From Chitinophagaceae bacterium (lineage in GTDB: Bacteria; Bacteroidota; Bacteroidia; Chitinophagales; Chitinophagaceae), in contig JANINS010000003.1 in the NCBI GenBank assembly GCA_024508725.1, forward strand, positions 1,364,001 through 1,428,000: DNA of 64,000 bases, in the 5' to 3' direction. The notes beneath the pieces were generated by a model. The model saw only the letters and a program-made list of their open reading frames with translations, was not told where the DNA came from and made no database searches. Positions 12,360-25,133 of this stretch are shown here, in pieces (the first letter of the stretch is position 1; each line of letters starts with the position of its first letter). The translations under genes were made by a program, and so were the position numbers.

Positions 12360-12420
12360 TTCCGAACGTACAAGTGAGTGACACAACAGACGAGGCTATG
12401 AAATACTAAAGCTGGTATCA
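12360..12420 (+). repeat. Dispersed intergenic repeat, copy c (GTGACACAAC type)
   Basis: Begins TTCCGAACGTACAAGTGAGT, continues GACACAACAGACGAGGCTAT and ends AAAGCTGGTATCA. It is the best full-length match to copy b. Confidence 0.85.
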
Positions 12421-13503
12421 AAACAACTTTCCCTGCTCTCCAGGTCTTCTGAACAAGCTGCAATCAAGCCCCAACCTTTCATGATTCAATCCATACTTCT
12501 CTGTGTACTTTCTGTACTGCATGGCTACCATTTCTGCGATGTTGCCTTCGCCTCTCATTCTAACACCCCAACGACTGTCATTCACTTTTCCGTTGTGACT
12601 GCCTTCGATAAAATGCCACACCTTATCTGCACGATCAGGAAAGTTTTTATACAACCAATCATGAAACAACAACTTGATAGCACCGTTCAAACGTATATAC
12701 GTGTAAGCTGAGAATGTTGCTCCGGCATTGCTGGCTGCTTTGATAATGTCGTGCATTTCATGTTCGTTCAAACCTGGTATCATCGGGCCTAACATAACAC
12801 CCATTCTTACACCTTCTTTCGCCATTTCTTCGATGAGTTTGAGCCGTTGTTTTCCTGTGGTGGTTCGTGGTTCCATTACTCTTCTTAAGTCTTCGTTGAA
12901 AGAAGTTATGGATACAAGAATAGAAACGATGTTCTTTCGTCCCATTTCACCCAGCAGGTCTTTATCTCTTAGCATTCCTGCATTCTTGGTGATCATTCCC
13001 ACAGGTTGGTTGAATTCATTGCACACTTCGAGCAAGCCTCTTGTGATGCGAAACTTTTTTTCTGCAGGCTGATAACAATCTGTGTTTCCACTTAAGCCGA
13101 TAGGCACACATTCCCATTTAGGATTCATGAGAAATTTTCGAAGTAGTTCAGGTGCGTTTTTCTTTACGATGATCTTTCTTTCGAAATCGATCCCTGCACT
13201 CCAGCCCCAATATTCAAAACTGTTTCTTGCATAACAGTAGATGCAACCATGTTCACAGCCCTGGTAAGGATTCATGCTGTACCACATACCAACATCCGGA
13301 CTGTCGACCTTGTTCACAATACCTTTTGCATTGTCTTCGAAATATTGTGTTTCTACGTTTGGTTCTGTCCAGTCGTCTATTGCTTCTATGTGTTCTCTTA
13401 CTTTCTGGTTCTTGAGAAACTTATTTGGCGTGTTGAATTGTGCTCCTCTGCCTTTTATATAGCCCCCATCCCCTGAAGGGGAGTGATTAATTTGATTATC
13501 CAT
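12418..13503 (-). CDS. PA0069-type radical SAM protein
   Basis: A 361-residue radical SAM protein of the SplB-like PA0069 group. The [4Fe-4S] cysteines are in YQGCEHGCIYCYARNS (C-x3-C-x2-C). Further marks are IGLSGNTDCYQPAEKKF and the GVMLGPMIPGLNEHE block. The reaction is unknown. The ATG at 13503 was chosen because the longer frame from 13587 would translate a palindromic repeat (GTGTCTGACAC) that does not look like protein. Even so, the first residues (SPSGDGGYIKG) are encoded by another palindrome, CCCCTGAAGGGG. Confidence 0.9.
   Translation of the reverse strand: MDNQINHSPSGDGGYIKGRGAQFNTPNKFLKNQKVREHIEAIDDWTEPNVETQYFEDNAKGIVNKVDSPDVGMWYSMNPYQGCEHGCIYCYARNSFEYWGWSAGIDFERKIIVKKNAPELLRKFLMNPKWECVPIGLSGNTDCYQPAEKKFRITRGLLEVCNEFNQPVGMITKNAGMLRDKDLLGEMGRKNIVSILVSITSFNEDLRRVMEPRTTTGKQRLKLIEEMAKEGVRMGVMLGPMIPGLNEHEMHDIIKAASNAGATFSAYTYIRLNGAIKLLFHDWLYKNFPDRADKVWHFIEGSHNGKVNDSRWGVRMRGEGNIAEMVAMQYRKYTEKYGLNHERLGLDCSLFRRPGEQGKLF
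13469..13482. repeat. Palindrome TCCCCTGAAGGGGA inside the radical SAM gene
   Basis: A perfect 14-base palindrome within the N-terminal coding region. The sequence around it, GCCCCCATCCCCTGAAGGGG, looks like an extragenic repeat that has become coding. Confidence 0.7.
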
Positions 13504-13537
13504 TTTTCGATTGTTATGTTGTTCCTGAATTGGTGAA

Positions 13538-13568
13538 GGTGTTTGACACTTTGGAAGTGTCTGACACC
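13538..13568. repeat. GGTGT(C/T)TGACACTT palindrome upstream of the radical SAM gene
   Basis: GGTGTTTGACACT (13538-13550) pairs with AGTGTCTGACACC (13556-13568) with a single mismatch. It sits in the 5' spacer of the radical SAM gene. Confidence 0.75.
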
Positions 13569-13582
13569 TGCGATTTGTTTTT

Positions 13583-13648
13583 GCCACGCATTACAGATTC
13601 ACGGATTTTATTTAATTCTAATTCGTGGAAATCTGTGTAATTCGTGGC
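13583..13648. repeat. CCACGAATTAC-type inverted repeat between umuC and the radical SAM gene
   Basis: GCCACGCATTACAGATTCACGG on the left and, in inverse, GCCACGAATTACACAGATTTCC plus ACGAATT on the right form an imperfect long hairpin covering most of the spacer. Confidence 0.65.
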
Positions 13649-13652
13649 TGAT

Positions 13653-14933
13653 TTATTTTACTTCTCTCAATTCATTCCATCTGGTGGTGTAGCGTGGACT
13701 GATAAAATCCTGTCGCATCTTCCAATTTTTTTCGGTTCCCGCTGAGGCGTATTTGATGATGTCGTCTCTCATGCTGAAGTTGATGTTGTCGAGCATATTC
13801 ATCAGCCACCGGCTTTGATTACTTGCTGCAGACTTGAACAGGTTTGCCTGGATGGATGTATCGGGGACCAATCCACTCAGCATCACTCCGGCCTTACTGT
13901 ATCTTTCTCCATCTTTATACACTTTTTCTGCAAGCGCCATGGCAGGTTTAATAAGTTCATGCGTTAATGAAGTAGGCGAATAAAGTGTTTGATATCTTGT
14001 TCTTGGATAGCCTCCATGCCGGTAATCTGCTGATCCGCTTTGTTGTTTCGGAACGACGAACACACTGATGAGGCTTGCTGCACTATGTTGCCTCCTGAGT
14101 TTTTCTGCTGCTCTTGCTGTGTAAGTGGCAACAGCTTCTTTTATGTCTTTAAGATCACTTACTGCAGCGCCGAACATTCTTGTAGTGGCGATCATCTTTT
14201 TGTTCACCAGCGGATCTCTCATTTCAATTGAATGCTTACCGTTCAATTCCTGAATCATTCTTACTCCGATCACTCCACCAAGGTTGGCTCTTGCCCATTC
14301 TTCGTTCATGTGTTTCAGTTCCCATGCTGTGTGAATGTTCCAGTCCATCAACTTTAAAGCGTAACGTCTGCCGATTCCCCAGAGATCTTTTACGTGTGTT
14401 CTTTGTAGTGCATCTGCTGTTGCTTCATCGGTATCAAGCACCCAGGTTTTAGAAGCCACTCTGAGTTTCTTTGATAAACGATTGGCTACTTTAGAAAGCA
14501 CTTTTGTTTTGCCCACACCAACAGATACTGAAACACCGGTCCACTGTTCTACTACATCTCTTATATGTGCTGCACATTGGTGAAGCTCTTCAACAGGAAT
14601 GTGTGTGAGATCAAGGAAAGCTTCATCAACAGAATACACTTCTACATTTTCTTCTCCTACCAAATATTTAAGTGTATCCATTACTCTCCTGCTGAGATCT
14701 CCGTATAAATTGTAGTTGGAGGAGAATGTTGAGATGCCATTCTGTTCAATGATGTCTTTTGCCTGGTAATACGGAATAGCCATGTCGATCCCATAGTTTT
14801 TTGCTTCGTTACTGATGGAGATAATGCATCCATCATTATTGCTAAGTACAACAACAGGTTTCTCTTCCAGGTCTGGACGAAATACTCTTTCGCAGGAGCA
14901 GTAGAAAGAGTTACAATCGACAATGGCTTTCAT
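13653..14933 (-). CDS. umuC: Y-family DNA polymerase, UmuC type
   Basis: Catalytic subunit of a pol V-like translesion polymerase, 426 residues. It begins MKAIVDCNSFYCSCERVFRP with the first metal-binding aspartate, followed by VVVLSNNDGCIISIS and the catalytic VEVYSVDEAFLDLT. Thumb and little-finger domains follow, including the VSVGVGKTKVLSKVANRL helix-hairpin-helix and a C-terminal RWNELREVK tail. The start at 14933 fits the family; the frame stays open to 15017 but the extra residues come from the inverted repeat upstream. It lies behind umuD on the same strand with a 200-base spacer rich in repeats. Confidence 0.95.
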   Translation of the reverse strand: MKAIVDCNSFYCSCERVFRPDLEEKPVVVLSNNDGCIISISNEAKNYGIDMAIPYYQAKDIIEQNGISTFSSNYNLYGDLSRRVMDTLKYLVGEENVEVYSVDEAFLDLTHIPVEELHQCAAHIRDVVEQWTGVSVSVGVGKTKVLSKVANRLSKKLRVASKTWVLDTDEATADALQRTHVKDLWGIGRRYALKLMDWNIHTAWELKHMNEEWARANLGGVIGVRMIQELNGKHSIEMRDPLVNKKMIATTRMFGAAVSDLKDIKEAVATYTARAAEKLRRQHSAASLISVFVVPKQQSGSADYRHGGYPRTRYQTLYSPTSLTHELIKPAMALAEKVYKDGERYSKAGVMLSGLVPDTSIQANLFKSAASNQSRWLMNMLDNINFSMRDDIIKYASAGTEKNWKMRQDFISPRYTTRWNELREVK

Positions 14934-15082: not shown

Positions 15083-15135
15083 CAGTACAAGAGTGCGACG
15101 CAACAGAAGCTTGATAGCAGTACCGGATTCTGGTT
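15083..15135 (+). repeat. Dispersed intergenic repeat, copy f (GCGACGCAAC type)
   Basis: CAGTACAAGAGTGCGACGCA, then ACAGAAGCTTGATAGCAGTAC and TTCTGGTT. Near-identical to copy g at 17916 (minus strand). Confidence 0.85.
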
Positions 15136-15619
15136 AATGATGTTTCTTTTTCTTCGCCGGCGTTCGGTGATGATCGAGTAAACCTTTTTCGAAGATGTGG
15201 ATGACACAGGTGACCAATCCAAATGGATTGAACTGGGTAAACTCACCAACTTCGATGGGTTCATAGCGACCATTTTCTGCAATGAGAGAAGGACCTTTAA
15301 TGCCCTGCTGAAAACGACGAACTACGAGGTCTCCGTTCACAGCTGCAACAATGATCTTTCCGTTGGTGGCTTTTAAACTTTTGTCAACGATGAGTACATC
15401 TCCGTTCTGAATTCCGGCACCGATCATGGCATCGCCATTCATGCGAAAGAAGAAGGTTGCTGGTTTGTTGTAAATGAGCTGTTCATTCAGATCAATACCA
15501 CGTTCGGCATAATCGTCTGCAGCAGCTCCAAAGCCTGTTGCATTAGCAGTTTGCACATCCTGCTGCGTAAAATGCCTGGTGCCCTCGTAAGAGGCACTGT
15601 AAAAGTTTTCCCATTCCAT
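15134..15619 (-). CDS. umuD: UmuD-like S24 peptidase-fold protein, catalytic dyad lost
   Basis: A 161-residue LexA/UmuD-family protein. The C-terminal fold is intact (FGAAADDYAERGIDLNEQL, MNGDAMIGAGIQNGD, NGKIIVAAVNGDLVVRRF, FGLVTCVIHIFE). However, the nucleophilic serine of the GDSM motif is Ala64 (codon GCC), and the general-base lysine of the TVKK block is Arg101 (CGT). The usual A/C-G cleavage site before the FP/FG turn is Thr28-Gly29. All three features needed for RecA-stimulated self-cleavage are therefore altered. It may act as a fixed, uncleaved partner or regulator of UmuC. The C-terminus is unusually basic (PAKKKKHH). A divergent LigT-like pair starts 59 bases away. Confidence 0.88.
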   Translation of the reverse strand: MEWENFYSASYEGTRHFTQQDVQTANATGFGAAADDYAERGIDLNEQLIYNKPATFFFRMNGDAMIGAGIQNGDVLIVDKSLKATNGKIIVAAVNGDLVVRRFQQGIKGPSLIAENGRYEPIEVGEFTQFNPFGLVTCVIHIFEKGLLDHHRTPAKKKKHH

Positions 15620-15678
15620 ATAACTTAATTTTGTTCTGCTAAAATAATTAGTATTTTTATGCCAAAGAAAATAGTTTT

Positions 15679-16272
15679 ATGGAGGCGTTAGTTAATTATC
15701 CACAACAGTCGTTGTTCAAAGGCAGCATTGTAAAAGAATACCTGCTGGTAGTAAATCCTGAAGCTGATGTATGGCAACAGGTTATGGATGAGAAAACGAA
15801 TTTCTTTAATGAATATCGTGATGTGAATGCCATCAAAACAAAACCGCATATCACTATCGCTAGTTTTCTTGCAAAGGAAGAAATGGAAGAAATTCTGTTG
15901 AGATGGATGCACAGGATCATCAGTACTTACAAAAGTTTTCAGGTATCGCTGAATAATTACAGTGGTTTCCCAACTTCTCAAACACTTTATATAAGAGTGC
16001 AGGATCATCAGCCATTTAAACAATTGGCTAAAGAGCTGAAAGTGATCGATGAACTGGTGAGAAGTAATGGGTTACCCAAAGCTCATTTAATCACGAATCC
16101 GCACATGATAATTGCAAAGCAATTGGAAAGTACTGTGTATGAAAGAGCGATGATGGAATATTCTAAGAAAGATTTTCATGCCGAGTTCGAAGTGAAAGAG
16201 TTGCTGCTGTTAAAAAGAAATAACCAGTTCGACACCTGCCAGCAGGTAAACATTTTTAGACTTCAACCATAA
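15679..16272 (+). CDS. 2',5' RNA ligase family (LigT-like) protein, first copy
   Basis: A 197-residue protein of the 2H phosphoesterase fold. The first catalytic motif is KPHITIASF (H57-I-T59). At the second expected motif the sequence is NPHMIIAKQL (H142-M-I144), lacking the Thr/Ser. The ATG at 15679 is followed by a short N-terminal tail. It is in tandem with a paralogue two bases downstream and divergent from umuD across 59 bases, so shared regulation with the umuDC pair is possible but unproven. Confidence 0.82.
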   Translation: MEALVNYPQQSLFKGSIVKEYLLVVNPEADVWQQVMDEKTNFFNEYRDVNAIKTKPHITIASFLAKEEMEEILLRWMHRIISTYKSFQVSLNNYSGFPTSQTLYIRVQDHQPFKQLAKELKVIDELVRSNGLPKAHLITNPHMIIAKQLESTVYERAMMEYSKKDFHAEFEVKELLLLKRNNQFDTCQQVNIFRLQP

Positions 16273-16274
16273 TT

Positions 16275-16931
16275 ATGGCACTGACGTATAAAGGACGAAT
16301 ATCAAAGGAGTTTACGTTGCCGGATTTTGGCGATGCGTACGATAAGAAACTGGAGCCTGCAGAGTATATGGTAGTGCTGGCTCCGCATGAAGATCTGTAT
16401 AATAAGATCATGGAGCTAAAACAGGAGTTCGCAAAAGCATATGAGAATACGATGGCTGTGGCTTTGAAACCGCACATCAGTATTGTTCGCTTTATTCAAT
16501 ATGAAATGAATGAGCTGAAGATTCACAATAAGCTGAAGTTATTGGCTACCGCTTTGCCTGATTTTAAAGTTGACCTGGATGGGTTTGGAAGTTATCCTTC
16601 TCACACTATTTATATCAAAGTACAAACGCAGGAACCGATAAAAGCGATCGCAAAGAAGTTGAAAGAAGCGCAATCGTTGATGACGATCAACAAGGAAAAC
16701 AAACCGCACTTTCTAAATGAACCGCATATTGCTGTTGCAAGAAAGTTGTTGCCCTGGCAGTATGAGAAAGGCTGGCTGGAGTACTCCAACAAACATTTTC
16801 ATGCAAGTTTTATGGCAGATCAACTGCTTTTTATGAAACGAACAGGTGGAAGTAAAGCCTGGCAGATCATTGACCGACTGAAAATGATGAATCTACCTGT
16901 GGAAACAAAGCAGGGAGATTTGTTTGCCTAA
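16275..16931 (+). CDS. 2',5' RNA ligase family (LigT-like) protein, second copy
   Basis: A 218-residue paralogue of the gene just upstream, with the same layout: KPHISIVRF (H67-I-S69) and EPHIAVARKL (H151-I-A153). Shared features include the GxxPSxTxYIxVQ strand and the terminal LLFMKR / LLLLKR strand. As in the first copy, the second motif keeps its histidine but lacks Thr/Ser. The two genes are separated by two bases and end in a good terminator, forming a bicistronic unit. Confidence 0.82.
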   Translation: MALTYKGRISKEFTLPDFGDAYDKKLEPAEYMVVLAPHEDLYNKIMELKQEFAKAYENTMAVALKPHISIVRFIQYEMNELKIHNKLKLLATALPDFKVDLDGFGSYPSHTIYIKVQTQEPIKAIAKKLKEAQSLMTINKENKPHFLNEPHIAVARKLLPWQYEKGWLEYSNKHFHASFMADQLLFMKRTGGSKAWQIIDRLKMMNLPVETKQGDLFA

Positions 16932-17915: not shown

Positions 17916-17973
17916 GCAGCCAGCTTTTTGTACTACTAATAAACTTCCGTTGCGTCGCACTCTTGTACTGCAA
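17916..17973 (-). repeat. Dispersed intergenic repeat, copy g (GCGACGCAAC type)
   Basis: Minus strand: GCAGTACAAGAGTGCGACGC, AACGGAAGTTTATTAGTAGTAC, AAAAAGCTGGCTGC. It matches copy f almost throughout and lies at the 3' ends of two converging genes. Confidence 0.85.
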
Positions 17974-25106: not shown

Positions 25107-25133
25107 GCTTCCGTTGCGTCGCACTCTTGTACA
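25107..25133 (-). repeat. Dispersed intergenic repeat, copy h (short, GCGACGCAAC type)
   Basis: Minus strand: TTGTACAAGAGTGCGACGCA then ACGGAAGC. Only the core half of the element is present. Confidence 0.75.

Follow-up and report, generated by a model that had tools for sequence, protein, structure and literature searches.

A clade of Chitinophagaceae UmuD proteins without the Ser/Lys dyad and with a conserved N-terminal arm

In E. coli, UmuD carries the residues Ser60 and Lys97 and a Cys-Gly cleavage site, and cutting activates it. As usually taught, this RecA-driven cleavage is the safety catch that restrains the most mutagenic polymerase of bacteria. A umuD-like gene in the DNA analyzed here (the window, meaning the whole stretch of 64 kb) has none of these three elements, and its N-terminal arm differs as well. 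This raises the question of how such a UmuD can serve its polymerase, and how that polymerase is then controlled. The features of the locus are collected in Table 1.

Table 1. Features of the umuDC locus in the window
Feature	Position	Strand	Basis or remark
umuD-like gene, S24 fold without Ser/Lys dyad, 161 aa	15134..15619	-	ORF, Pfam/NCBIfam, AF2
N-terminal arm, residues 1-28 (Y-x-G-S/T-K ... Q ... TANAT)	15536..15619	-	kept and conserved in clade
Thr28-Gly29, counterpart of scissile Ala/Cys-Gly	15533..15538	-	sequence comparison
Ala64 codon GCC (motif GDAM), position of nucleophilic Ser	15428..15430	-	direct reading
Arg101 codon CGT (motif VVRRF), position of catalytic Lys	15317..15319	-	direct reading
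SOS box CTAA-N5-TTAG, perfect palindrome	15639..15651	.	motif from PMC8565304
umuC, 426 aa (IMS, IMS_C, DUF4113), carboxylates D6, D103, E104 intact	13653..14933	-	downstream of umuD
PA0069-family radical SAM gene	12418..13587	-	neighbor in many relatives
2'-5' RNA ligase/2H phosphoesterase-like gene 1	15679..16272	+	divergent, conserved neighbor
2'-5' RNA ligase/2H phosphoesterase-like gene 2	16275..16931	+	divergent, conserved neighbor

The UmuD of the window and its locus

The first-pass annotation had read alanine for the nucleophilic serine, arginine for the catalytic lysine and Thr-Gly for the scissile bond, in a UmuD fold that was otherwise intact and still paired with umuC. All of these readings held. 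The codons were read directly from the sequence, and umuC lies downstream. The protein matched Pfam S24 with 80.7 bits and NCBIfam PRK10276 with 119.9 bits (cut-off 110). The closest solved structures to its AF2 model were those of UmuD' (1ay9/1umu), and UmuD' gave the best PDB matches by sequence as well as by fold. The window protein is therefore of the UmuD family in its S24 UmuD-type fold and in sequence. It shares the fold, the length class, the umuC operon and the apparent SOS control with E. coli UmuD and UmuD', at about 40% identity in the core. Of the serine nucleophile, lysine base and Ala/Cys-Gly bond that define an S24 autoproteolytic peptidase, all three are missing. No DNA-binding domain was found in it by Pfam or NCBIfam. 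UmuDAb of Acinetobacter is likewise a diverged UmuD with changed control, but it is a cleavable repressor that binds DNA.

Autocleavage of the window UmuD is chemically improbable, and we regard it as very unlikely. Arginine is not known to stand in for lysine in Ser/Lys dyads, and the absent serine alone suffices to make the protein non-catalytic, whatever the arginine can do. The NCBIfam model NF007621 (PRK10276) assigns the name "autoproteolytic subunit", above its cut-off, both to the window UmuD and to a second dyad-less UmuD of the same genome (L001:1501-1872, described below). This curated NCBI label is very probably wrong for UmuDs without the dyad.

The two ligase-like genes have the SOS box region in common with umuD and often neighbor it in the family. 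In many relatives both of their His motifs have degenerated, and an unstudied SOS function of these genes is possible. In several relatives the radical SAM gene directly follows umuD, with umuC shifted beyond the ligase genes. An exact 19-bp repeat, GTACAAGAGTGCGACGCAA, was present at 15085-15103, 17950-17968 and 25114-25132 (chance expectation 0), one copy lying in the 200 bp that separate umuD from umuC.

Spread of the clade and conservation of the arm

UmuDs of the window's type are referred to as group A. A family sample of 197 genomes contained 124 with a match, and about 97 of these carried group A (hand count); 132 distinct sequences from fetched loci were used for the core comparison. 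Arginine occupied the lysine position in all 132. The serine position was Ala in 114, Ser in 16 and Thr in 2, and the cleavage position was Thr-Gly in 123. Whether the double change was clade-wide had been left for an alignment to decide. The dyad proved to be lost throughout group A; strictly, only the arginine is invariant, whereas position 64 varies.

Group A formed a single clade with support of 100/100 in a tree built without both catalytic columns. Named loci place it in Chitinophagaceae (Lacibacter, Ferruginibacter, Niastella, Filimonas, Sediminibacterium, Flavisolibacter, Longitalea, Limnovirga and many MAGs). A genome of the same genus (G069, locus L006) showed identical changes in a UmuD with 79% identity to that of the window. 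For this pair of umuD genes dN was about 0.13, which is a rough bound only, because dS was saturated. Since the double change recurs in this genome and across the family, a sequencing error at both codons and a pseudogene beside an intact copy, both named in advance as possible refutations, were ruled out.

In other families of the same class and order, all 28 examined UmuD loci, which were the best-scoring ones rather than a random draw, had Ser, Lys and Ala-Gly. No match covering the arm at group A similarity was found outside the family in the samples of 395 genomes from the class, 199 from the order and 296 from the phylum. Matches outside the family mostly began at about residue 24-28, with about 45% identity or below. 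Judged from these samples, the dyad-less, arm-keeping clade appears to be confined to one family, Chitinophagaceae. No close phage or plasmid relative was present among the matches listed (all <60% identity), and a mobile origin of the window UmuD was rejected accordingly. A description of the clade was not found in the open-access literature searched, and dyad loss in UmuD is not described in the passages of PMC8565304 considered here.

The arm of group A appears to be a conserved, rebuilt element. Mean pairwise identity in group A was 0.65 for residues 11-19, 0.92 for residues 25-47 and 0.59 for the core, compared with 0.18, 0.58 and 0.49, respectively, in cleavable UmuDs of the same class. 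Cleavable UmuDs have a docking patch before the cleavage point, FPLF in E. coli and mostly L-P-[FYL] in the compared sequences. These arm-docking hydrophobics are swapped for polar residues in group A. Position -8 from the Gly was hydrophobic in 51 of 54 cleavable UmuDs versus 0 of 130 group A members, and position -3 in 54 of 54 versus 0 of 130; position -10 was Gln in 127 of 130 group A members. If UmuD were merely no longer cut, the first 28 residues would be expected to be lost or to drift, but in group A they are conserved instead. The AF2 model of the window UmuD as a monomer gave pLDDT values of about 40-50 for residues 1-48 and >90 for most of the core. That residues 25-47 are the most conserved and yet are modeled at low confidence would fit an arm that becomes ordered on a partner.

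Internal starts were considered as well. Residue 29, at which a start would yield UmuD' directly, is encoded in the window by GGC, which is not a start codon, and Met38 is missing in some group A members, the window protein among them; both candidates were rejected. As a speculation, the arm motif Q-x-[DE]-[VI] might be a clamp-binding motif.

Linkage with umuC, as expected of the UmuD family, was found in the window, and of 80 loci from named relatives, 78 contained umuC. The catalytic carboxylates were intact in 70/70 UmuC partners of group A. These partners formed one clade, with 15 UmuC sites that are fixed or nearly fixed in group A and rare in the Bacteroidota set referred to as group B; several of the sites lie in the C-terminal half. 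The UmuC clade matches the UmuD clade. Binding of UmuC and support of translesion synthesis are predicted properties of the window UmuD.

SOS box, candidate repressor and second umuDC

The SOS box begins 32 bp before the umuD ATG and is the sole match in the 64-kb window. Wherever a named relative had 200 bp of sequence upstream of the gene, CTAA-N5-TTAG was there (79 of 79), in most cases 31-33 bp ahead of the ATG; among control windows it occurred in 8 of 3,235. This conservation points to SOS control of the window umuD. In the part of PMC8565304 considered here, CTAA-N5-TTAG is given as the Bacteroidetes SOS motif of a non-canonical LexA regulon, and umuDC is reported as one of its regulated targets. 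The genome of the window also encodes an S24-HTH regulator (L004) with GDSM, VYKRV and Ala-Gly, i.e. with Ser and Lys intact, and two CTAA-N5-TTAG boxes stand immediately before its start. The box is thus shared by umuD and the regulator, and by analogy with PMC8565304 the latter is likely the repressor of the CTAA-N5-TTAG regulon.

The search for an intact UmuD elsewhere in this genome (3.88 Mb, 8 contigs), proposed in the first-pass annotation, uncovered a second umuDC (L001:1501-1872 (+), G000:C2:98741-99088), with umuC directly downstream of its umuD. This copy is dead as well: Ala replaces Ser (GNAM) and Arg replaces Lys (TVRYL). An intact second copy was thereby ruled out, and with both UmuDs dyad-less, no catalytic UmuD was found in the genome. 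The L001 protein starts with MGFPSPSTDYLEERIDLN, exactly past the normal cut and close behind an in-frame stop.

N15 gp26 encodes UmuD' directly, like P1 HumD. HumD is annotated as complementing UmuD' and starts with MGFPSP. The L001 UmuD has the same design, with its start at the cleavage point, and scored 77 against the HumD equivalog model, below the cut-off of 120. The window UmuD scored 59.6 bits against this model, also below the cut-off, and does not start at the cleavage point. HumD needs no cleavage, as is proposed here for the window UmuD, but HumD is armless, whereas the window UmuD has a conserved 28-residue arm.

In group B, 13 of 67 UmuDs had Arg for Lys. The arm was absent or very short in 12 of the 13 Arg forms versus none of the 54 Lys forms (Fisher p = 2e-12, with relatedness ignored). 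Parsimony gave at least five changes within group B, two of which are forced by starred branches. Arm loss and Lys loss thus appear to have been coupled repeatedly, group A being the exception in which Lys was lost and the arm was kept. The loss of Lys from armless Bacteroidota UmuDs supports the view that the dyad survives solely for self-processing. Group B UmuDs whose genes begin at the cleavage point were L037, L038, L044, L052, L064, L068, L070, L071 and L073; in this sample all such forms have Arg for Lys.

Proposed control of a polymerase with a probably uncleaved UmuD

We consider it fairly probable that the window UmuD is a permanently UmuD'-like, uncleaved Pol V subunit with a rebuilt arm, controlled at the level of transcription by a cleavable S24 repressor. 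The ancestor would have been a UmuD that cleaved itself in the ordinary way. On the branch that gave rise to the Chitinophagaceae clade, Arg would have replaced the catalytic Lys, with Ser also lost in most members. The hydrophobic patch docking the arm on the globular domain would have turned polar, and the arm would have acquired a conserved sequence that is new (Y-x-G-S-K ... Q ... TANATGFGAAADDY). The arm would no longer fold back, the protein would behave permanently as UmuD', and arm residues would engage UmuC. A cleavable S24-HTH repressor would act at CTAA-N5-TTAG until RecA activation releases umuDC. Activity without cleavage, the lack of cleavage in the cell, release of the arm and its contact with UmuC are what we infer in this scheme.

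An engineered counterpart is UmuD-3A (T14A L17A F18A), a non-cleavable, full-length mimic of UmuD' with a weakly docked arm (PMC5342242). The corresponding docking position -8 is polar in group A, so that weak docking may be expected here as well. UmuD-3A is artificial, whereas the change in group A arose in nature, spans the clade and comes with a new arm sequence that is conserved. Other observations speak against the proposal. E. coli UmuD S60A sharply cuts UV mutagenesis and sensitizes cells (PMC3901139, PMC5342242). Because this non-cleavable form fails in E. coli, the proposal requires compensation by the rebuilt arm, by UmuC or by both. In a published Pol V model the free UmuD' N-terminus is placed close to the active site of UmuC (PMC11791011), an arrangement that an uncut arm cannot copy exactly. 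In addition, about 6 of the about 97 group A genomes also have a Ser/Lys UmuD, which could cut in trans.

It is unlikely, in our estimate, that the window UmuD is instead a permanent brake, which would keep UmuC from mutagenesis in a checkpoint-like manner and leave bypass to another polymerase or the second UmuDC. Uncleaved E. coli UmuD2C is reported to block mutagenesis and act in a checkpoint (PMC3901139; PMC4045847), and the pre-cut UmuDC at L001 could be such a second system. However, in about 85 of the 97 clade genomes a second UmuD was not found at E<=1e-3 (hand count), which would leave a dedicated brake without another UmuD to release it. Moreover, the docking residues that would hold the arm are gone, and the catalytic residues of UmuC are all kept. 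The first-pass annotation had proposed that a protein unable to cleave needs another form of control, or is permanently active or inhibitory. The need for another control stands, and the evidence favors a permanently UmuD'-like protein under transcriptional control over an inhibitory one.

Removal of the arm by some other protease, be it of Clp/Lon type, a different S24 protein or a catalytic UmuD present in the same genome and cutting in trans, is a shade less likely again. The high conservation of Thr-Gly would agree with it, as would the finding that an active partner can cut E. coli UmuD S60A in trans (PMC5342242). Against it, about 91 of the 97 clade genomes lack a Ser/Lys UmuD (hand count), and the N-terminal segment to be discarded shows a conservation not seen in cleavable UmuDs. 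Residual autocleavage, with Arg as a weak base and the 16 Ser-bearing members still being cut, is highly improbable, as Ala takes the place of the nucleophile in the window protein and in 113 others, and exchanges between Ser and Ala inside the clade resemble drift against an Arg background. Decay to an inactive relic heading for loss has the missing catalytic residues in its favor but can hardly be maintained given the dN value, the invariant columns and the conserved SOS box and operon.

We see even chances for a family-wide Pol V lineage without a proteolytic switch, in which the UmuD arm, once an inhibitor to be removed, would be a permanent structural part in or on UmuC, and activation of the mutagenic polymerase would come from transcription and RecA binding only. 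A large environmental family seems to have dropped the cleavage catch with the polymerase still under SOS control, and regulated gene expression is probably the sole control left on this mutation-prone polymerase. Group A would serve as a clean natural experiment on the purpose of UmuD cleavage, and on a possible working role of the arm.
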